From NCBI RefSeq assembly GCF_007859315.1, contig NZ_VOHA01000001.1:806001-870000 (forward strand): DNA of 64,000 nucleotides. Direction: 5' to 3'. Origin of the DNA: Reyranella sp. CPCC 100927. Its GTDB lineage: Bacteria > Pseudomonadota > Alphaproteobacteria > Reyranellales > Reyranellaceae. A model generated the notes under the pieces. That model was not told the DNA's origin and did not search any database. It was given only the letters and a program-made list of their open reading frames with translations. The stretch's first letter is position 1; each line of letters starts with the position of its first letter. Shown here in pieces: positions 6,010-24,728 of the stretch. The position numbers and the translations under genes are program-made.

Positions 6010-7014
6010 ATGATCGGACGGAGCAGGAGTCTCAGTGTCATTGCGGCGCTGGGGGTATGGGCCGCAACGGCGGCAACGGCCGCCGCCGCCGATTTTACGA
6101 TGAAGATCGCGTTCGGTACGGCCAACGACATCCAGCAGCAATGGGCGGACTGGTACAAGGAGGAGGTCGAGGCCCAGAGCAAGGGGCGCATCGCCGTCCA
6201 GATCTATCCGCGGGCCGTGCTGGGGACCGGGCCGTCGATGATCCAGGGCACGCAGCTGGGCACCATCCAGGCCTACACGTCGCCGACCGATTTCTTCGCC
6301 GGCATCGATCCGCGCTTTGGCGTCTTTGCCATTCCGATGATGTTCAAGGGTCGCGAGCACGCAGCCAAGGTGATTCTCGATCCAGAGATCAACCGTGCGA
6401 TTCTCGGCTTCGGCAAGGACAAGGGGCTGCAGCCGGTGTCGGTGTTCACCTATTCGCTGGCGAACTACTGCGTCAAGCCGTCGATCCGCACCATCGATGA
6501 TTTCAAAGGCAAGAAACTGCGCGTGAACGCCACCCCGGCCGAGCGCGAGCGCATGCGCCTGCTGGGCGCGGCGGCCGTGCCGATGGACCTGGCGGAAGTG
6601 ATTCCGGGAATCCAGCAGGGCACCATCGACGGCACCATGAGCGGCATGGCGGTCTATGTGAACTTCAAGTTCAACGACATCTGCAAGGTGATCACGGAGA
6701 CCGGCGACACGATGATCGTATCGGTCGGCGTACTGAGCAGCGCCTGGCTCGACAAGCTGCCACCCGATTTGCGCAAGATCGTCGTCGAGGCGGGGGAGAA
6801 CATGCAGGGGCGCCTGAACGCCCGCTCGCGCGAGATCGAAGACCAGATGATCGCGCGCTGGAAGACGATGGGTGGTGACCTGGTGAAACTGCCGGAGGCC
6901 GAGCTCGCCCGCATGCGGACGGTGCTGGCACCGGTCGGCGAGGCCGTCACGCGCGACAATGCGCTCGCCAGCACGTTCTATCGCCAGCTGCGCGCGGTCG
7001 GAGAGAAGCACTAG
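6010..7014 (+). CDS. TRAP transporter substrate-binding protein (DctP family)
   Basis: From the ATG at 6010, preceded by AGGGGGG, the protein has 334 residues. A Sec signal peptide ends near AATAAAA, and the mature protein opens with DFTMKIAFG. The fold follows DctP proteins: a KGRIAVQIYP strand, GTQLGTIQAY, then the domain hinge and FKGKKLRVNA with PAERERMR, where the family's ligand arginine lies. It would bind an anionic solute in the periplasm and deliver it to the DctQM pair encoded directly after it. Starts at 5992 or 5995 are possible but lack a good ribosome site. The ligand is unknown; the flanking amidohydrolase suggests a carboxylate released from an amide or peptide. Confidence 0.88.
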   Translation: MIGRSRSLSVIAALGVWAATAATAAAADFTMKIAFGTANDIQQQWADWYKEEVEAQSKGRIAVQIYPRAVLGTGPSMIQGTQLGTIQAYTSPTDFFAGIDPRFGVFAIPMMFKGREHAAKVILDPEINRAILGFGKDKGLQPVSVFTYSLANYCVKPSIRTIDDFKGKKLRVNATPAERERMRLLGAAAVPMDLAEVIPGIQQGTIDGTMSGMAVYVNFKFNDICKVITETGDTMIVSVGVLSSAWLDKLPPDLRKIVVEAGENMQGRLNARSREIEDQMIARWKTMGGDLVKLPEAELARMRTVLAPVGEAVTRDNALASTFYRQLRAVGEKH

Positions 7015-7026
7015 GGATGCCCATCC

Positions 7027-7047
7027 CTCCCCTACCGCGCTGGGGAG
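7027..7047 (+). other. Small hairpin between dctP-like and dctQ-like genes
   Basis: CTCCCC at 7027-7032 pairs with GGGGAG at 7042-7047 across a nine-base loop, followed by an A-rich run. It lies in the 55-base gap after the binding-protein gene. Such stem-loops in TRAP and ABC operons often stabilise the upstream message so that more binding protein than permease is made. That role is inferred here. Confidence 0.35.
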
Positions 7048-7069
7048 AGAAAAAAGAGCAGGCACGAAG

Positions 7070-7627
7070 ATGCCCAACCACAAAGAGCCCGGCCTGCCGC
7101 CGGGCGAGGCGGACGCCGCGGGGCTCAGTCCCGATATCGATCAGCATGCTGACCCGTCGTGGGCGGACTCGGCTTTCGTGCGCTGGCCGATGATGGTGCT
7201 CGGCGGGCTCATGCTTGCCGCCGTCGCCCTCAACTTCGCGAACATCATCGGCCGCTACGTGTTCCACTACGCAATCGTCTGGACCGAGGAGATCCTGATC
7301 GTCTGGCTGGGCTGGAGCGTCTTCATCGGTGTCGTGATCGTAACCTATCGTGGCGATCACCTGGCCATGGACATCGTCTCGAAGAGCCTGCCGGGGCGAT
7401 GGCGCCTGGCGAACAATCTCGTCATGACGCTTGTGTTCGCCGCCTGCCTGGTCTTCGCCGTCGTGCAGTCGGCCAAGGTCGTTCTTTTGATGATCAAGAC
7501 CGGGCAGACCGACCCGATGATGGGCATGCCGCTGTGGGTGCCCAACCTCGCCATCTTCGTGGGTTTCACCGGATCGCTGTGCGCCCTGCTGATACGGGCC
7601 AGATCGTACGTCACGGGGCGCTTCTAG
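7070..7627 (+). CDS. TRAP transporter small membrane subunit (DctQ family)
   Basis: The ATG at 7070 gives 185 residues. After a polar N-terminal stretch of about 38 residues come four hydrophobic segments, including MMVLGGLMLAAVALNFANII and a segment with WTEEILIVWLGW. The latter is the DctQ family signature around its second helix. DctQ joins the large DctM subunit and helps dock the binding protein. The gene ends TAG, two bases before the dctM-like start. Upstream in-frame starts exist but overlap the binding-protein gene. Confidence 0.88.
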   Translation: MPNHKEPGLPPGEADAAGLSPDIDQHADPSWADSAFVRWPMMVLGGLMLAAVALNFANIIGRYVFHYAIVWTEEILIVWLGWSVFIGVVIVTYRGDHLAMDIVSKSLPGRWRLANNLVMTLVFAACLVFAVVQSAKVVLLMIKTGQTDPMMGMPLWVPNLAIFVGFTGSLCALLIRARSYVTGRF

Positions 7628-7629
7628 CG

Positions 7630-8904
7630 ATGTCGGCGTTGCACATCACGATGGCGGCGCTGCCGCTGCTTTTTCTGGTGTTCGGCTATCCCTTCGCGCT
7701 GGTCCTGCTGGCCACGGTAACGGTGGCGCTGGCCTTCGTGATCGATATCCCCGCCGATCTGCTGCATCAGGCGATCTTCAGTTCGCTCAACAAGTATGCG
7801 CTGATCACCGTGCCGTTCTTCGTCTTCGCCGGGGACCTGATGGCGCGGGGCGGTGTGTCCGAGCGCCTTGTCGCCTGGGTGGGTGCGATCATCGGCGGCG
7901 TCCGCGGTTATCTGCCGTTGACGGTGTTGGGCACGAACGTGGTGTTTTCCGCGATCTCCGGCTCGACTTCGGCTGCCGTCGCGGCCGTCGGCAGCATGAC
8001 GTACAAGCAGCTGCGCCAGACGGGCTATAGCGAGCGCTATGCCTCGGGTCTGCTTGTTTCCGCCGGCGCGATGGACAACCTGATCCCGCCATCGATCGGG
8101 TTCATCCTCTATAGCGCCGCTTCCGATACGTCGGTCCTGCGCCTGTTCACCGCCGGCATTGTGCCCGGCTTGCTGCTCGCGGCCGCCTTTGCCGCCCTGG
8201 TTTACGGTCGCGCGCTGCTGAACGAAGAGCGGCCGCAAACCCGGTTTACCTGGCAACGGTTCCTGGCGGCGACGCGCGCGGGCATCTGGTCGATCCTCGC
8301 GCCGGTCGTCGTGTTGGGCGGCTTGTACGGCGGCCTGTTCTCGCCGACCGAAGCGGCCGGCGTAGCCTGCGTCTATGCCATGATCATCGCCTGCTTCGTC
8401 TATCGCAAACTGACGTTTCGCGGCATTCTTGACTCGGCGGCGCGATCGGCACGGCTTACCGGACAGGTTTTCATCATCGTGGCCGTGGCCGGTGTCTACT
8501 CATGGCTGCTCACGGTCAGCGGCACGTCGGATGCCGCCACCCAGTTCATCGGCGGATTGCAGGTTCCGGCCTGGACCGTGCTGCTCGCCATCAACATCTT
8601 CCTTCTGGTGGTCGGCTGTTTCATCGACACGGCGTCGGCCATCCTGGTCCTGACGCCGCTGCTGGTGCCCATCGCCCGTTCGATCGGAGTCGATCCGATC
8701 CACTTCGGCGTCATCCTGGTCATGAACCTCAGCCTGGGGACGTTCACGCCGCCGTTCGGCGTCAACCTTTTCGTGGCGCAAGCGGTGCTCAAGGTGAACG
8801 TGCGTGAGATGTACATCGGTGTCGTCCCGTTCTTCCTGGTGGCGCTGATCGCCCTGCAACTGGTGACGTCGTTTCCGATCCTCTCTCTGTGGGCATTCCA
8901 GTAG
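7630..8904 (+). CDS. TRAP transporter large permease subunit (DctM family)
   Basis: This 424-residue protein starts at the ATG 7630, two bases after dctQ. It is very hydrophobic with about 12 helices. DctM hallmarks include KYALITVPFFVFAGDLMARGG near the start, the GTNVVFSAISGSTSAAVAAVG loop, NLIPPSIGFILYS and, in the second half, FTPPFGVNLFV. It forms the ion-coupled channel of the TRAP system, driven by Na+ or H+. It completes a PQM operon that leads, after a repeat element, to the amidohydrolase gene. Confidence 0.9.
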   Translation: MSALHITMAALPLLFLVFGYPFALVLLATVTVALAFVIDIPADLLHQAIFSSLNKYALITVPFFVFAGDLMARGGVSERLVAWVGAIIGGVRGYLPLTVLGTNVVFSAISGSTSAAVAAVGSMTYKQLRQTGYSERYASGLLVSAGAMDNLIPPSIGFILYSAASDTSVLRLFTAGIVPGLLLAAAFAALVYGRALLNEERPQTRFTWQRFLAATRAGIWSILAPVVVLGGLYGGLFSPTEAAGVACVYAMIIACFVYRKLTFRGILDSAARSARLTGQVFIIVAVAGVYSWLLTVSGTSDAATQFIGGLQVPAWTVLLAINIFLLVVGCFIDTASAILVLTPLLVPIARSIGVDPIHFGVILVMNLSLGTFTPPFGVNLFVAQAVLKVNVREMYIGVVPFFLVALIALQLVTSFPILSLWAFQ

Positions 8905-8916
8905 ACCTGGATAAAA

Positions 8917-9001
8917 CCTGGGAGCGCGGGCCTCCGGCCCGCTCATGTCAGGGAAAGCCAAGCTCTCGCCTTGATGCGGGCGAGACGCCCGCGCTCCCAG
9001 G
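8917..9001. repeat. Cloverleaf-like palindromic intergenic repeat
   Basis: CCTGGGAGCGCGGGC at 8917-8931 pairs perfectly with GCCCGCGCTCCCAGG at 8987-9001. Inside lie two smaller hairpins, GCGGGCC/GGCCCGC (8926-8942) and GCGGGC/GCCCGC (8976-8992). This matches the general form of REP-like elements scattered in proteobacterial genomes. It separates the TRAP permease gene from the amidohydrolase, where it could end or weaken transcription. Confidence 0.65.
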
Positions 9002-9069
9002 ATTTCTTTTGTCTGCGATACGCTCTAGCTTTAACGCCGTGTTTGCAGACATGGCTGGCGGAGTCCGTG

Positions 9070-10302
9070 ATGTCCCAGGTGTTGTTCCGTAACATCTCGC
9101 TGCTCGATCCGCGGTGGAACGAACCGCGTGGCGGCTACGAGGTTCTGGTCGAGGGCGAGACGATCCGCGAGGTGTCGGACCGGCCGATCCGGGCGCCCGG
9201 CGCCCGGGTCGTCGATGGCGGCGGGCGCACCCTGCTGCCCGGCCTGATCGACTGCCATGTGCACACCATGCACAGCGAGGTCTATGTCAACCGGCTGGAG
9301 ACCGTGCCGCTGACCTTGATGGCGGCGCATGCCGCCGAGCGGCTGAAGCGCATGCTGGATCGCGGTTTCACCACGGTGCGCGACGCCGGCGGCGCCGACT
9401 GGGGCATCAAGGCGGCGCTTGAGGCGGGCCTGATCCCCGGCCCGCGGCTTTTCATCTCCGGCCGCTCGATCGGCCCGACGGGCGGGCACAACGACCGCAA
9501 CCGTCGCACCCAGATCGAGCCGGTGTGCAACTGCTGCAATGCCATGGTGTTCCTTCGCAGCATCGCCGACGGCGCTGACGAGGTGCGCAAGGCGGCGCGC
9601 GAGCAGCTGCGCCAGGGTGCCGACCAAGTGAAGTTCATGGTCTCGGGCGGCGTGGCCTCGCCCTACGATCCGCTGGAAAGCCGGCAGTTCACGGTCGAGG
9701 AGATGTCGGCCGGGGTCGAGGAGGCCGTGGCCTTCGGCCGCTATGCGCTGGCGCATGCCTATACGCCCGAGGCCATCACGCGCGCGATGACCGCGGGCGT
9801 GCGCACCATCGAGCACGGCAACCTGGTCGATGCCCAGGCGGCGGCGCTGATGGCATCGAAGGGCGCCTACATGGTGCCCAATCTCGTGGCGTACGTGGTG
9901 ATGAAGGAACGTGCCGCATCCTACGGCATGACCGCCGATATGCTCGACAAGAACGAGCACGTGCTGAAGTCAGGCTACGCCGAACTGGAATTGTGCCGTG
10001 CCGCCGGCGTGAAGATGGGCTACGGTTCCGACCTGCTGGGGGCCTTGGAGAACGAGCAGAGCCGCGAGTTCCTGATCCGCCGCGAGGTGATGCCGGCGAT
10101 CGACGTGCTGCGCTCGGCCACCCTGGTGGGGGCCGAGATCGTGCGCCGTGAGGGCAAGCTCGGCGTGATCGAGCCTGGCGCCTTCGCCGACCTGCTGCTG
10201 GTCGACGGTGATCCGCTCAAGGATTTCGGCTGCCTGCAGGATGGCGGGGCTCACTTTGCCGCGATCATGAAGGGTGGTGCGTTCCACAAGTACGCGGTCT
10301 GA
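9070..10302 (+). CDS. Metal-dependent amidohydrolase (prolidase/imidazolonepropionase-like), copy 1
   Basis: The 410-residue protein shows a full amidohydrolase site: His63 and His65 in DCHVH, Lys188 in QVKFMVSGGV (likely the carboxylated lysine), His229 in LAHAYTPEA, His249 in IEHGN and Asp321 in GYGSDLLG. This pattern fits the binuclear Xaa-Pro dipeptidase-like branch that cleaves amide or N-acyl amino acid bonds. A CNCC cluster (153-156) is unusual and is shared with the paralogue at 27.9 kb. There is no signal peptide, so it acts in the cytosol, probably on what the upstream TRAP system imports. The start at 9070 was chosen because it aligns residue for residue with the paralogue. Confidence 0.88.
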   Translation: MSQVLFRNISLLDPRWNEPRGGYEVLVEGETIREVSDRPIRAPGARVVDGGGRTLLPGLIDCHVHTMHSEVYVNRLETVPLTLMAAHAAERLKRMLDRGFTTVRDAGGADWGIKAALEAGLIPGPRLFISGRSIGPTGGHNDRNRRTQIEPVCNCCNAMVFLRSIADGADEVRKAAREQLRQGADQVKFMVSGGVASPYDPLESRQFTVEEMSAGVEEAVAFGRYALAHAYTPEAITRAMTAGVRTIEHGNLVDAQAAALMASKGAYMVPNLVAYVVMKERAASYGMTADMLDKNEHVLKSGYAELELCRAAGVKMGYGSDLLGALENEQSREFLIRREVMPAIDVLRSATLVGAEIVRREGKLGVIEPGAFADLLLVDGDPLKDFGCLQDGGAHFAAIMKGGAFHKYAV

Positions 10303-19080: not shown

Positions 19081-20649
19081 TTACCGCGTTGGCCGCCTGT
19101 CGCGCGGCCGAGCGTTAACGAATCGTTTGATGGCCTCGAGCACTGGTTGTTGAGCACCCGCAAAGAACCAATGATCATTGCCGTCGAGCTCAACGAATTG
19201 AGCGCCGGTGATTTGGCTGGCCATATCGCGGCCTGCCGCAAGACGCACGGCCTGATCGTTCCGACGGTGCAGCACCAGCGTGGGCACAGAAACCCGTGGC
19301 AGGAGGTGTCTCACGTCGGTGTCGCGCAACGCCTTGAGCACGGCCCAAATGCCGCCGGGACTGGAGGCCGCGCGCAGCAGTCCGGCCCACCAGGCCCTCG
19401 CTTGGGGATCACGAGAGAGGCTCGGTCCGAAGGTTTCGATCCCGGCAGGGCCACCCCATTCGGCGACGAGCTGCTGGCGCCAGGCGTCATATTGGCTTGC
19501 CCGCAACGCGTACGGATAATCCGGCGCCCAACAACCCTTGGCCAATGAGCCGAACAGAATGAGGCCAGCCACGAGGCGGGGTTCATCGACCGCAAACTTG
19601 ATGCATGCCGGCCCACATTCCGACGCCCCAAACAGGATGACACGACGCGTGTGCGCTGCCCGCAGCACGGTGCCGATATCCTCGGCCGTGACGTCGACAC
19701 TCGGGGCGGATCCGACGCGGTCCGACAGCCCGATACCGCGACGATCGAACATGATGAGTCGCCCAAGCGCCATCAATGAAACCAGAAATGCCCGGCACGA
19801 GGGATGCTCCCAAGCGCGTTCCACGTGTGACACGAAGCCAGGCATGATCAGGATATCAAGCGCGCCGCTTCCGTATGTCTGATACGCCAGATGGACGCCG
19901 GCGCCCTCGACATAGAGTGTTGTTGGAACGGCATGGACCAGCGGCGGCGTGGTGGGGTCCATGAGCGCTTCGGTCGCGGCTTCGGGTGCAACTCCAAGCT
20001 CGTCACGCAGCCGCCGTGTCAGTGCCGCGTGGTGCCGTTCTGCCGAACGTCGATCGCCGGCAAGCAGGAGGCTGCGGATCAAATGCCGACAATACACCTC
20101 GCTCAGCGGATCGAGCTCGACAAGGCGTCCCGCGTGAGCTGTCGCGGCAGAATGGTCGCCGGCGGCATTCTTGTCCTGCACGAGGCGTTCCAACCCATGG
20201 ATGAGCCGCCCTCTGAGCGCCTCGCGGCGAAAGAACGCCCAATCGTCGAACTCGGGACAATCAGCCAGAGCGAAGCCCGCGAGGAAGTCACCCCGATAGC
20301 GTAGGCAGGCGTCCTCAAAGGCGCCTCCGTCGCAGGCGCTCTCGAACAGATGCGAGTCGACCGTCAGGTCGATCGCCGGAGACCACCGCACGCTGGTGCG
20401 GTCGGTCTCGAAAATGGGCTGGCCGAGCGTAAGCTCGATGCGATGAAGCATGCGCCGCAATCGCGCGCGGGCGGTCTCGCGGGGACTCTCGGGCCACAGC
20501 AGCGTGGCAACGACGTCCCGGGCAACGGCGCCCCGGGCCTCCGCGAGATAGATCAGCAGCGCAAGACCCTTGCGCAGGTTCAGCTTGATCGGGCGGTTGT
20601 CACCGTGGATCTCCGGGAACCCGAGCGTCTGAAGCGAGAACCCGGTCAT
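19081..20649 (-). CDS. SARP/BTAD-type regulator fused to an alpha/beta hydrolase
   Basis: This 522-residue protein is a two-domain fusion. Residues 1-230 resemble SARP activators. They begin with a winged-helix-like FSLQTLGFPEI and RKGLALLIYLAEA, then a bacterial transcriptional activation domain with DFLAGF, a helical repeat and RRLRDELGVAPEA. Residues 245-515 are an alpha/beta hydrolase: ILIMPGFVSHVERAW, DRRGIGLSDR, nucleophile Ser343 in FGASECGP, Asp465 in HRRNDQ and His493 in GNDHWFF. The nucleophile elbow is GASEC rather than GxSxG. The hydrolase part may sense or process a ligand that controls DNA binding. It is divergent from the quinone oxidoreductase gene, a possible target. Confidence 0.82.
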   Translation of the reverse strand: MTGFSLQTLGFPEIHGDNRPIKLNLRKGLALLIYLAEARGAVARDVVATLLWPESPRETARARLRRMLHRIELTLGQPIFETDRTSVRWSPAIDLTVDSHLFESACDGGAFEDACLRYRGDFLAGFALADCPEFDDWAFFRREALRGRLIHGLERLVQDKNAAGDHSAATAHAGRLVELDPLSEVYCRHLIRSLLLAGDRRSAERHHAALTRRLRDELGVAPEAATEALMDPTTPPLVHAVPTTLYVEGAGVHLAYQTYGSGALDILIMPGFVSHVERAWEHPSCRAFLVSLMALGRLIMFDRRGIGLSDRVGSAPSVDVTAEDIGTVLRAAHTRRVILFGASECGPACIKFAVDEPRLVAGLILFGSLAKGCWAPDYPYALRASQYDAWRQQLVAEWGGPAGIETFGPSLSRDPQARAWWAGLLRAASSPGGIWAVLKALRDTDVRHLLPRVSVPTLVLHRRNDQAVRLAAGRDMASQITGAQFVELDGNDHWFFAGAQQPVLEAIKRFVNARPRDRRPTR

Positions 20650-20869
20650 GAAATCTCCCCCTTGCCCTATCGGTGCCCCGGGGACGCACAGGGGACGGTC
20701 CGGTGATACCTGTCAGGCGCTCGCTATCGAGCGGTTCAGGCTCTTGCATTCGGCACCGCTGCCGCCAGCACGGGGAAACATTGATGTTCGCGCGTCTCTT
20801 AATCCTGTTCTACGCCATCGTGAGCCGGGCGGACAATCGCCAGGCACCTCGGCCTGTGGGAGCGCCACG

Positions 20870-21847
20870 ATGAGAGCCGTGCTATGCAGTGCGTTCACTG
20901 GCGCGGAGGACCTGCGCATCGGCGAGATCGACGAGCCGAAGCCGGCCAGTGACGAGATTCTGATCGACGTCCATGCGGCCTCCGTGAGTTTCATGGACCA
21001 TCTGCTGGTCTCGGGCCGTTACCAGATGCGACCATCGACGCCATTCGTGCCCGGCACTGAAGCGGCAGGCGTCGTCATCGCGGTTGGTGAGAGGGTCACG
21101 AGATTTCAGCCGGGCGATCGCGTGGCGTGTGGGAGCTGGACGGGCGGCTATGCCGAGCGGATGATCGCCAAGGAACGGCAGTGTGTGCGGTTGCCGGTCG
21201 GCGTCGCTTTCGAAACGGCGGCCACGGTCTGGCACAGCTACGGCACGGCGTACTATGCCTTGGTCGAGGCGGCACGAGCGCAACCCGGTGAAACGGTGTT
21301 TGTCACTGGGGCCGCAGGTGGAGTTGGCCTCGCCGCCGTCGACCTTGCCGGCTACTTGGGCCTGCGCGTCGTCGCCGGTGTCGGCTCCGACGACAAGGCG
21401 GGTTTGGTGCGCGGCTACGGTGTCTGCGATGTCATCAACTATCGGAACGAAGACCTGCGCGAGCGGATCAAGTCGATAACCGGTGGCGAAGGCATCGATA
21501 TCTGCCTCGACAACATCGGCGGAACGATGTTCGAGCAACTGGCGCGGCTGATGAAGTGGGGTGGACGGCTGATGCCGATCGGTTTCACCAGTGGCCAGAT
21601 TCCGTCGCTGCCAATGAACCTCCCGTTATTGAAGAACTATTCCATCGTTGGTGTCTTTGTCGGCGCCTGGATAGAGAAATTCCCTGAGCAGGCTGCGCGC
21701 ATGAATGACACCCTGGCGCAGTTGTTGGCCGAGGGGAAGATTCACCCCCACATCGATCGCGTCCTTCCCCTGGAACAGGTCAAGGAAGCGCTGCGCGCCG
21801 TGGCTGATCGGACGGTTCAGGGAAGAATCGTCCTGAGCACAAGGTGA
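20870..21847 (+). CDS. NADPH:quinone oxidoreductase-like zinc-independent MDR enzyme
   Basis: The 325-residue protein from ATG 20870 is a medium-chain reductase of the quinone oxidoreductase branch. It has GTEAAGVVIAVGERV in the GroES-like half, VFVTGAAGGVGLAAVDLAGY as the NADPH-binding loop, and DICLDNIGGTMFEQL. No structural or catalytic zinc cysteines are seen. It would reduce quinones, enones or enoyl esters with NADPH. It is divergent from the SARP-hydrolase gene and lies 36 bases before the hotdog-like gene, so those two probably form a unit. Confidence 0.85.
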   Translation: MRAVLCSAFTGAEDLRIGEIDEPKPASDEILIDVHAASVSFMDHLLVSGRYQMRPSTPFVPGTEAAGVVIAVGERVTRFQPGDRVACGSWTGGYAERMIAKERQCVRLPVGVAFETAATVWHSYGTAYYALVEAARAQPGETVFVTGAAGGVGLAAVDLAGYLGLRVVAGVGSDDKAGLVRGYGVCDVINYRNEDLRERIKSITGGEGIDICLDNIGGTMFEQLARLMKWGGRLMPIGFTSGQIPSLPMNLPLLKNYSIVGVFVGAWIEKFPEQAARMNDTLAQLLAEGKIHPHIDRVLPLEQVKEALRAVADRTVQGRIVLSTR

Positions 21848-21883: not shown

Positions 21884-22642
21884 ATGACATCGATAATCAT
21901 CGACAAGCGGTACTGCGGGCCTCCGAACTCCGGGAACGGCGGATATGTCTGTGGCCGGCTGGCCCGGCACATTTCAGGCAGCGCGGAGATCACGCTGCGC
22001 GCACCGCCGCCCCTGGACAAGCAGCTCGATGTCGTCGCGGCGGACGACGGGTTGTGGGAGCTTCGCGATGGCGCCACGGTCGTCGCCACCGGACGACCGG
22101 CAAGTCTTGAACTTGCGCGCCTGGAGAAGGCAAGCTTCGACGAGGCATGTGCCGCCGAGCTGCTGACGCCGGTCAAACCGCACGAGCATCCGCTGCCGAC
22201 GTGTTTCGTGTGCGGTCCTGCGCGGTCGCCGGGAGATGGCCTGCGCATTTTTCCCGGACCGCTCGTGCGTCAGTCCCGGAATGCTTCGGCTGTGCTCGCG
22301 GCGACCTGGACACCGGATCCGAGCCTGACGGCGGAGGACGGCTTCGTCGCGCCCGAATTTCTCTGGTCGGCGCTCGATTGTCCCACGGGCTATGCGTCCT
22401 CTCATGACCGGGAGAGCGGCAGCTTCGATGGGACGCCGATCCTGTTGGGTCGGATGTCGGCACGGATAGAGACACGGCCGCGCCCGGGAGAACGCTGCGT
22501 CATCACGGCCTGGGAGGCCGGCCGCGACGGCCGCAAACGCGTTGCCGAGGCCGCGGCCTATGGTGAAGCGGGAGCGTTGCTGGCCGTGGCTCGATCGACG
22601 TGGATTGCAGTTGACCGCCAAGTGCAGCTCGGTCGCGCCTGA
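21884..22642 (+). CDS. Hotdog-fold thioesterase-like conserved protein
   Basis: The 252-residue protein has a GAGGAAGGA site before the ATG. It begins with the strand-rich YCGPPNSGNGGYVCGRLARH, carries TCFVCGPAR (a CxxC), and has PEFLWSALDCPTGYA, which looks like the central helix of a hotdog domain. It ends with AVARSTWIAV. This arrangement is seen in uncharacterised double-hotdog acyl-CoA thioesterase-like proteins. The function is inferred from fold only. It follows the quinone oxidoreductase gene on the same strand. Confidence 0.65.
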   Translation: MTSIIIDKRYCGPPNSGNGGYVCGRLARHISGSAEITLRAPPPLDKQLDVVAADDGLWELRDGATVVATGRPASLELARLEKASFDEACAAELLTPVKPHEHPLPTCFVCGPARSPGDGLRIFPGPLVRQSRNASAVLAATWTPDPSLTAEDGFVAPEFLWSALDCPTGYASSHDRESGSFDGTPILLGRMSARIETRPRPGERCVITAWEAGRDGRKRVAEAAAYGEAGALLAVARSTWIAVDRQVQLGRA

Positions 22643-22740: not shown

Positions 22741-23271
22741 CTACAGGACGGCCTCGGCGAGGAACCAGATGCGTCCCTCGGCCTCGTCGACCCAGTTCTC
22801 GATCAGGCTTGCCGTCGCGATGTCATGATGCTCATCGCAGAGGTCATGGGCCTCGCGGAGATTTATGGCGAGACGCCGGTTGTCGTCGCGTAGCTCGCTC
22901 AGCATGTCGGCAGCCGCGATGTCTTCGGCGTCGTTGTCCGCTGCGCGCTGCAGGCGAGCGATGTGGCCCACCGAGCGCAGCGTCGTGCCGCCAAGCTTGC
23001 GCACGCGTTCGGCAACGGGGTCGATGGTGGCGAGCACCTGAGCACTCTGCTCATCGAGCAGGAGGTGGTAGCTGCGGAAGTGCGGCCCCGACACATGCCA
23101 GTGGAAGTTCTTGCTCTTCACGTAGAGGGCGAAAAGATCTGCCAGCACCGCGTTAAGCGCGGCCGAGATCGCGATGACGCCCTCAGGGCTTACACCGGCG
23201 GGTTGCTGTGCCGGGCGGTCGTCGCGCGGCATCGTGTTGGTCGCACGCATGGGCATTCTCTCCTTATTCAT
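22741..23271 (-). CDS. dps: DNA-binding ferritin-like protein Dps
   Basis: This 176-residue protein is a Dps-family ferritin. [20 protein letters not shown] carries the ferroxidase histidine and acidic ligands shared between subunits, and [20 protein letters not shown] lies in the last helices. Dps oxidises Fe2+ with H2O2 and coats DNA under oxidative stress. The ATG overlaps the catalase stop as ATGA (23268-23271), with GGAG eight bases upstream, so translation is coupled to catalase. Further ATGs at 23256 and 23250 with an AAGGAG site could give a shorter form. Confidence 0.9.
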
Positions 23272-24728
23272 CGCGGCGTCTCCGTGACGCTCGCGAGGCG
23301 CTTCAGGGCTGCAGCGACGCCGGCCCCGTATGCGGGATCGGCCTTGGTGCAGTTGGCGACGTGGCGCCGCTGGATGTCGACGGCGGCGCGGCCCACGGCG
23401 CGCGCGGTGTTGTCAAACAGCGCCTGCCGCTGACCAGACGTCATCTTGCGGAACAGATCGCCCGGCTGCTGATAGTGGTCGTCGGGCTGATCCCAGTGGG
23501 CGGCGGCGCCGTCGATCTCGAGCGGCGGTTCGTTGAGATCGCGCTGGTCAGCCCATTCACGCCGGCTGTTCGGGAAGTAGGGCGGCATGCGCCCGAGATT
23601 GCCGTCCGTGCGCATCGCGCCGTCGCGGTGATAGCTGTGGAACGGGCATTTCGGCGCGTTGACCGGAATGTGGTTGAAGTTCACCCCGAGCCGGTAACGC
23701 TGGGTGTCGCCATACGAGAACAGCCGCGCCTGCAACATCTTGTCGGGCGAGAAGCCGATCCCCGGCACGATGTTCGCTGGCGAGAACGCGGCCTGCTCGA
23801 CCTCGGCGAAGACGTTCTCCGGATTGCGGTTGAGCTCGATATGGCCGACCTCGATCAGCGGGAAGGCCGCCTTCGGCCAGACCTTGGTCAGGTCGAACGG
23901 ATTGAACGGGAACGTTTTGGCCTGCGCATCGGTCATGACCTGGATGAAAAACGTCCAGCGCGGCAACTGTCCGCGCTCGATGCTGTCGAAGAGATCACGC
24001 TGGTGTGTCTCACGGTCCTTGCCGACCAGGGATTCCGCTTCGGCATCGGTCAGGTTCTCGATGCCCTGCTGGGTGCGGAAGTGGAATTTCACCCAGGTCC
24101 GCTCGTTCGCGGCGTTGATGAAGCTGTAGGTGTGGCTGCCGAAGCCATGCATGTGGCGGTAGCTCCTCGGAATGCCGCGCTCGCTCATCACGATCGTGAC
24201 CTGGTGCAGTGCCTCGGGCAGCAGCGTCCAGAAGTCCCAGTTGTTGTCGGCGCTACGCATGCCGGTACGCGGATCGCGCTTGACCGCGTGGCCGAGGTCG
24301 GGGAAGCGCAAAGGATCACGGGAGAAGAAGACGGGCGTGTTGTTGCCCACCATGTCCCAGTTGCCTTCTTCCGTGTAGAACTTCAGCGCGAAGCCGCGGA
24401 TGTCGCGCTCGGCATCCGCCGCGCCGCGTTCCCCGGCAACGGTCGAGAAGCGGGTGAACAGGGGAGTCTGCTTGCCGATCCGCGAGAAGATCCTGGCCTT
24501 GGTGTAGCGGGTAATGTCGTGGGTGACGGTGAAGGTTCCGTAGGCGCCGGATCCCTTGGCGTGCATACGCCGCTCGGGGATGACCTCGCGGTCGAAATGG
24601 GCGAGCTTCTCGACCAGCCAGATGTCCTGCAGCAGCGCAGGACCGCGGCGGCCGGCGGTCTGGATGTTGAGATTGTCGCTGACCGGGGCTCCTGTCGCGT
24701 GGGTCAGAGAAGGTGGTTGGTCAGCCAT
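23268..24728 (-). CDS. Monofunctional heme catalase (clade 3)
   Basis: The 486-residue protein is a small-subunit catalase. It shows the distal site [20 protein letters not shown] with its catalytic His, then [10 protein letters not shown] with the conserved Asn. [16 protein letters not shown] carries the proximal heme Tyr, and IPVNAPKC follows. It breaks down H2O2 in the cytosol. Its stop codon overlaps the Dps start, so peroxide removal and iron sequestration are produced together. The gene lies 260 bases downstream of a LysR gene on the same strand. No OxyR-like gene is adjacent. Confidence 0.93.

Follow-up and report, generated by a model that had tools for sequence, protein, structure and literature searches.

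The locus studied here raises the question of what is controlled by a transcription factor that carries an alpha/beta hydrolase on its own chain, and what the hydrolase contributes. The window, a stretch of 64,000 nucleotides of Reyranella sp. CPCC 100927 (contig NZ_VOHA01000001.1, positions 806,001 to 870,000), holds the gene, here called REG, on the reverse strand at 19081..20649. Its open reading frame is intact, with an ATG start and no stops, and encodes a protein of 522 amino acids in which a SARP module (winged helix-turn-helix and BTAD) is fused to an alpha/beta hydrolase. REG is probably a SARP activator, and its hydrolase domain would gate the activation of an operon of mddA, a quinone oxidoreductase gene and a thioesterase-like gene.

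The BTAD of REG (residues 110-230, 19960..20322, reverse strand) scored above the Pfam cut-off, and the first 100 residues (20350..20649, reverse strand) received no score from Pfam. A profile built from residues 1-240 matched AfsR (8hvr, 6e-15) and EmbR (2fez, 1e-13) over positions 4-232, so that a winged helix is present despite the silence of Pfam. As judged from these profiles, REG has a complete SARP module in its N-terminal half, an OmpR-like winged helix followed by BTAD. Residues W52, R65, R66, H69 and R70 were aligned by HMMER with the DNA-contacting W74, R87, T88, S91 and R92 of AfsR, with PMC10936776 as guide to the AfsR contacts. Arginines at the two base-reading positions of REG would suit a G-rich site. 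All five positions were invariant across 48 orthologues; the earlier note on this DNA had named a lack of DNA-binding residues in other fusions as evidence against its reading, and these orthologues retain them. Its description of a SARP/BTAD regulator joined to a hydrolase was borne out by the Pfam and profile matches.

The hydrolase domain spans residues 244-513 (19111..19920, reverse strand) according to Pfam, NCBIfam and Foldseek, with Pfam Abhydrolase_1 on residues 297-496. The nucleophile elbow G-A-S343-E-C345 was located at 19615..19629, Asp465 at 19255..19257 and His493 at 19171..19173, all on the reverse strand. This triad, which the earlier note had placed correctly, has the right order and positions and was invariant in the 48 aligned orthologues. 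In the AlphaFold model, which is of modest quality (pLDDT 71, pTM 0.59), Ser343 stands between the end of a strand and the start of a helix, as expected of an elbow. Foldseek searches with the domain gave target-length TM-scores of up to 0.83, the best solved folds being arylesterases and haloperoxidases, and KAI2-type receptors were also among the matches.

A GxSxG elbow is usual in alpha/beta hydrolases, not obligatory; the rule of the fold is Sm-X-Nuc-X-Sm, and both cysteine and serine are small enough to fit. The window REG reads FGASECG, a GASEC elbow instead of GxSxG, as had been noticed before. Among the 48 orthologues residue 345 was always small (Cys in 43, Gly in four and Ser in one). 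Most of the Bradyrhizobium-type clade has GASEC as its fixed form, GASEG occurs in L047 and in the Reyranella-type outgroup, and GASES in L044; on this distribution GASEC is a replacement by another small residue that arose inside a single clade. The GASEG orthologues keep the same neighbours and predicted operator as the GASEC ones, and the replacement is therefore probably no functional break; the likeliest account is a derived change, neutral or tuning in effect, that is not the key to REG. The view of the altered elbow as a notable feature did not hold up, and the idea that it marks a loss or change of catalysis was set aside as the main point. The change of the second elbow glycine to cysteine in 43 of 48 sequences would fit a hydrolase domain that is a catalytically dead relic, serving only in oligomerisation or protein contact. 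This is very unlikely, given that Ser343, Asp465 and His493 never vary, that Cys and Ser obey the elbow rule and that L047 and the Reyranella-type orthologues read GASEG with the same targets.

The candidate targets were sought by comparing the neighbourhoods of 48 loci (given L-numbers) that contain the start of REG. In the window REG faces QOR, an MDR-family quinone oxidoreductase-like gene (20870..21847, forward strand), and HOT, which encodes a TesB-like double-hotdog thioesterase-like protein (21884..22642, forward strand). HOT belongs to no Pfam family; its assignment comes from the predicted model (pLDDT 77, far ahead of the other four models), which matches TesB double-hotdog thioesterases. 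The earlier note had identified both facing genes correctly, and the co-occurrence that it proposed as a check was found: QOR and HOT both adjoin REG in 43 of the 48 loci, and of the remaining five, L013 and L034 end at a contig edge. Its choice of this pair as likely targets stood in so far as the pair is conserved with REG, and was incomplete in that mddA is the immediate neighbour of REG in most relatives.

The mddA gene was present in 44 of the 48 loci, usually between REG and QOR. Its product in the relatives is a membrane protein that scores 370 bits with the NCBIfam equivalog MddA (NF045656), against a cut-off of 270; scores ranged from 349 to 383 bits across the relatives and from 349 to 353 bits in the Reyranella-type loci. 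In both Mesorhizobium loci (L011 and L023) and in L044 it was the sole partner found, and its position is on the opposite side of REG in L044 and L054. Orthologues of REG with 67-70% identity were found in other genomes of the same family (L121, L123 and L124). There REG is divergent from an MFS transporter gene followed by mddA, a GNAT/FeeM-like gene (in L121 and L124), QOR and HOT; L122 is without the MFS gene. In L121 the MFS gene occupies 6775-7950 and that of the weakly FeeM-like N-acyltransferase 8960-9619, both inside the operon, hinting at a small-molecule product or its export. Several Bradyrhizobium loci carry a PAS-LuxR-type gene between mddA and QOR (for example L014:4414-5085), an arrangement that recalls PimR/PimM. 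The other neighbours in the window (RibD-like, YjdN-like, GSTs, Dps and catalase) were not conserved with REG over the 48 loci. The Dps-like ferritin gene and the catalase gene that follows it (22741-24728) overlap by 4 bp, and this pair is not kept beside REG elsewhere.

Part of this neighbourhood might argue for another role of the hydrolase. REG could regulate the operon as a bifunctional, trigger-type protein whose hydrolase half is a pathway enzyme, hydrolysing a thioester or ester of the pathway and tethered for co-expression; likewise, catalysis alone might account for the retained triad. The complete, invariant triad, the active esterases and haloperoxidases as closest solved folds and the thioesterase-like protein and oxidoreductase in the operon are all in line with a pathway enzyme. 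Several paralogues of this genome retain the fusion beside other neighbours, which a reusable sensor module fits better, and the homologous domain of LipJ-type proteins is fused to adenylate cyclases, again a signalling output, so that a pathway enzyme is considered unlikely. These paralogues are three further BTAD-hydrolase fusions of about 30% identity to REG (L128, L129 and L130, on contigs C8, C18 and C11), all facing different genes than REG does. More such fusions were found in related genomes and in an Anaerolineae MAG, and the architecture is not rare. The elbows of the three paralogues read SQGC and their neighbours differ, with a multidrug-type transporter in L128 as an example.

Between REG and QOR, the window was found to contain two elements that the earlier note had missed. 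The first is a remnant of mddA (20784..20873, forward strand) of 29 codons, consisting of the first 14 codons joined in frame to the C-terminal tail, MFARLLILFYAIVSRADNRQAPRPVGAPR, with its stop overlapping the QOR start (ATGA). The 14-codon start is identical to that of L009 and L012 in 38 of 42 bases. The same kind of in-frame remnant, with different junctions, was seen in L016, L032, L043 and L048; in all five loci the remnants measure 19-29 codons and the stop overlaps the QOR start. The remnant loci lie dispersed across the REG tree, so the loss of mddA has happened several times, and the system can do without this gene, which five REG loci lack. The ATGA overlap and the retained frame in five out of five remnants, not all of them certainly independent cases, suggest translational coupling. 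Two other, intact mddA genes lie on other contigs of this genome, and the predicted operator described below was absent within about 6 kb of both. Near another mddA copy, a 743-residue alpha/beta hydrolase fused to a glycosyltransferase-28-like domain was observed (L126:7976-10204). A link to this hydrolase-glycosyltransferase or to a LipJ-like protein near another mddA was rejected, as no regulator gene was found there.

The second element is a predicted operator, GGGGACG-CACA-GGGGACG (20680..20697, forward strand), a direct heptamer repeat with an 11-bp period that falls inside the region 20650-20869 where the earlier note had proposed to look for binding of the protein. GGGGACG-NNCA-GGGGACG is the most conserved block of the divergent intergenic region in the 48 loci; no other block reaches the 1.6-2.0 bits found at the heptamer positions of 55 sites. 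A putative −10-like hexamer, TACCTG (extended: TGATACCTG), lies 9 bp past the second heptamer at 20707..20712 on the forward strand; its TA stands in the same register at most sites, the conserved pattern being GGGGACG-N4-GGGGACG-N9-TANC. SARPs bind heptamer direct repeats with an 11-bp period (PMC10972967, PMC10936776), the 3' repeat lying about 8 bp from the −10 element (PMC10936776). With a heptamer period of 11 (or 22) bp at about 8 bp from a −10 element as the mark of a SARP operator, the window site agrees with this geometry at the level of the sequence, its −10 element being a putative one.

Four results support a function of the predicted operator, which is associated with mddA. Its distance to the ATG of mddA is 97-99 nt in most loci, and that to the ATG of REG varies from 19 to 42 nt. 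Where the MFS gene stands between REG and mddA (L121, L123 and L124) two copies of the operator are present, one before the MFS gene and one before mddA, and where mddA lies beyond REG (L044 and L054) it has its own copy. A matrix of 33 bp was trained on the Bradyrhizobium-type sites, leaving out L121-L124 and the sites of relocated mddA; these sites nonetheless outscored all of 1.39 million background positions (for one site, all but one). On the REG side of L044 and L054 the heptamers are preserved and the sequence downstream of them is not, and these sites score poorly with the full 33-bp matrix. A degenerate operator pattern gave nine matches in six whole genomes, eight of them at REG loci, and the reversed control gave none, by which REG looks like a local regulator without a visible wide regulon. 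A genome-wide regulon in the genome of the window was rejected, as allowing up to two mismatches gave 105 matches against 126 for the reversed pattern, with one exact site.

Adjacency alone is no proof of binding, and the operon includes a PAS-LuxR gene in some loci, so the heptamer repeat might serve that protein or an unlinked factor, with the targets of REG lying elsewhere. Such an arrangement is quite improbable, since the operator is conserved with and without the LuxR gene, heptamers with an 11-bp period are of the SARP type and eight of the nine pattern matches in six genomes fall at REG loci. A second regulator of the same family could also read both the REG and the mddA sites.

For the reading of REG as a gated activator, the following course of events is proposed. 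The hydrolase domain would stand where a large SARP usually carries its C-terminal signal domain. By binding a small ester, lactone or thioester, and possibly hydrolysing it slowly, this domain would switch the SARP module. Two REG protomers would sit side by side on the two GGGGACG heptamers, at the −35 region of the promoter that reads rightward, and would recruit RNA polymerase in the manner of AfsR to the operon of mddA, in some loci PAS-LuxR, QOR and the thioesterase gene, activating rather than repressing it. Because mddA has been lost by in-frame deletion, the promoter in the window would now drive only the 29-codon remnant, QOR and the thioesterase gene. Autorepression of REG is also possible, the predicted operator lying so close to its start codon.

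The origin of the locus may lie outside the genus. Of the four genomes of this genus in the collection, a close REG was found in this one only, and it groups with Bradyrhizobium-type sequences (93% identity to L009) and not with the orthologues of 67-70% identity from its own family. This grouping points to a horizontal transfer of the locus.

The finding of the fused regulator is real, and its interest lies in the predicted operator and regulon around mddA, not in the elbow. The mddA gene is responsible for methanethiol-dependent production of dimethyl sulfide (DMS), and in soil metagenomes its forms from Bradyrhizobium rank among the most abundant (PMC5607357). The literature searched yielded no description of an mddA regulator; where mddA was combined with BTAD, SARP or AfsR, it was absent from the matches listed. 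The REG locus provides a candidate regulator, an 18-bp predicted operator and a predicted set of co-regulated genes, which makes the control of mddA directly testable. REG also offers an example from nature of a single polypeptide in which an alpha/beta hydrolase fold is joined to a SARP DNA-binding module. In a more far-reaching form, put forward tentatively, REG may be a one-component system with a KAI2-like hydrolase receptor and a SARP activator on one chain, which senses a small ester, lactone or thioester and controls the conversion of methanethiol to DMS in Bradyrhizobium and Reyranella-type soil bacteria. That would make REG the first regulator dedicated to mddA, acting on an operon from which mddA has been excised in frame more than once and whose other regulated genes have stayed.

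Upon comparison with known systems, each part of the locus has a counterpart. In most relatives the gene beside REG scores above the equivalog cut-off for the methanethiol S-methyltransferase MddA, by which its function is predicted; the window differs in holding only a remnant, the two intact copies elsewhere in the genome being without the operator. The hydrolase is homologous to that of the lipase-adenylate cyclase LipJ/Rv1900c (NF058673; 168 bits over residues 240-513), likewise a hydrolase fused to a signalling output. REG has no cyclase domain, however, scores 167.8 bits against a family cut-off of 800, which places it outside that family, and would have DNA binding as its output. In the pimaricin cluster a large SARP (PimR, SARP-LAL) and a PAS-LuxR protein (PimM) also share one locus, with heptamers separated by 4-nt spacers (PMC10972967), whereas here the PAS-LuxR gene is optional, the effector domain is another one and there is no polyketide cluster. 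With the large SARPs AfsR and EmbR, REG shares the N-terminal winged helix and BTAD over about 230 homologous residues and an operator, here predicted, with an 11-bp direct repeat near the −10 element. It differs in having an alpha/beta hydrolase after BTAD, where AfsR has NOD and TPR and EmbR has FHA, and in its heptamer, its alphaproteobacterial host and the volatile-sulfur gene as predicted target. The receptors of the KAI2/DWARF14-like and RsbQ type use a triad hydrolase for signal perception and have the same fold (TM-score with KAI2 of 0.7-0.8 by target length), a likeness in fold only at about 14-18% identity to REG; they act through partner proteins, whereas the output of REG would lie on its own chain.
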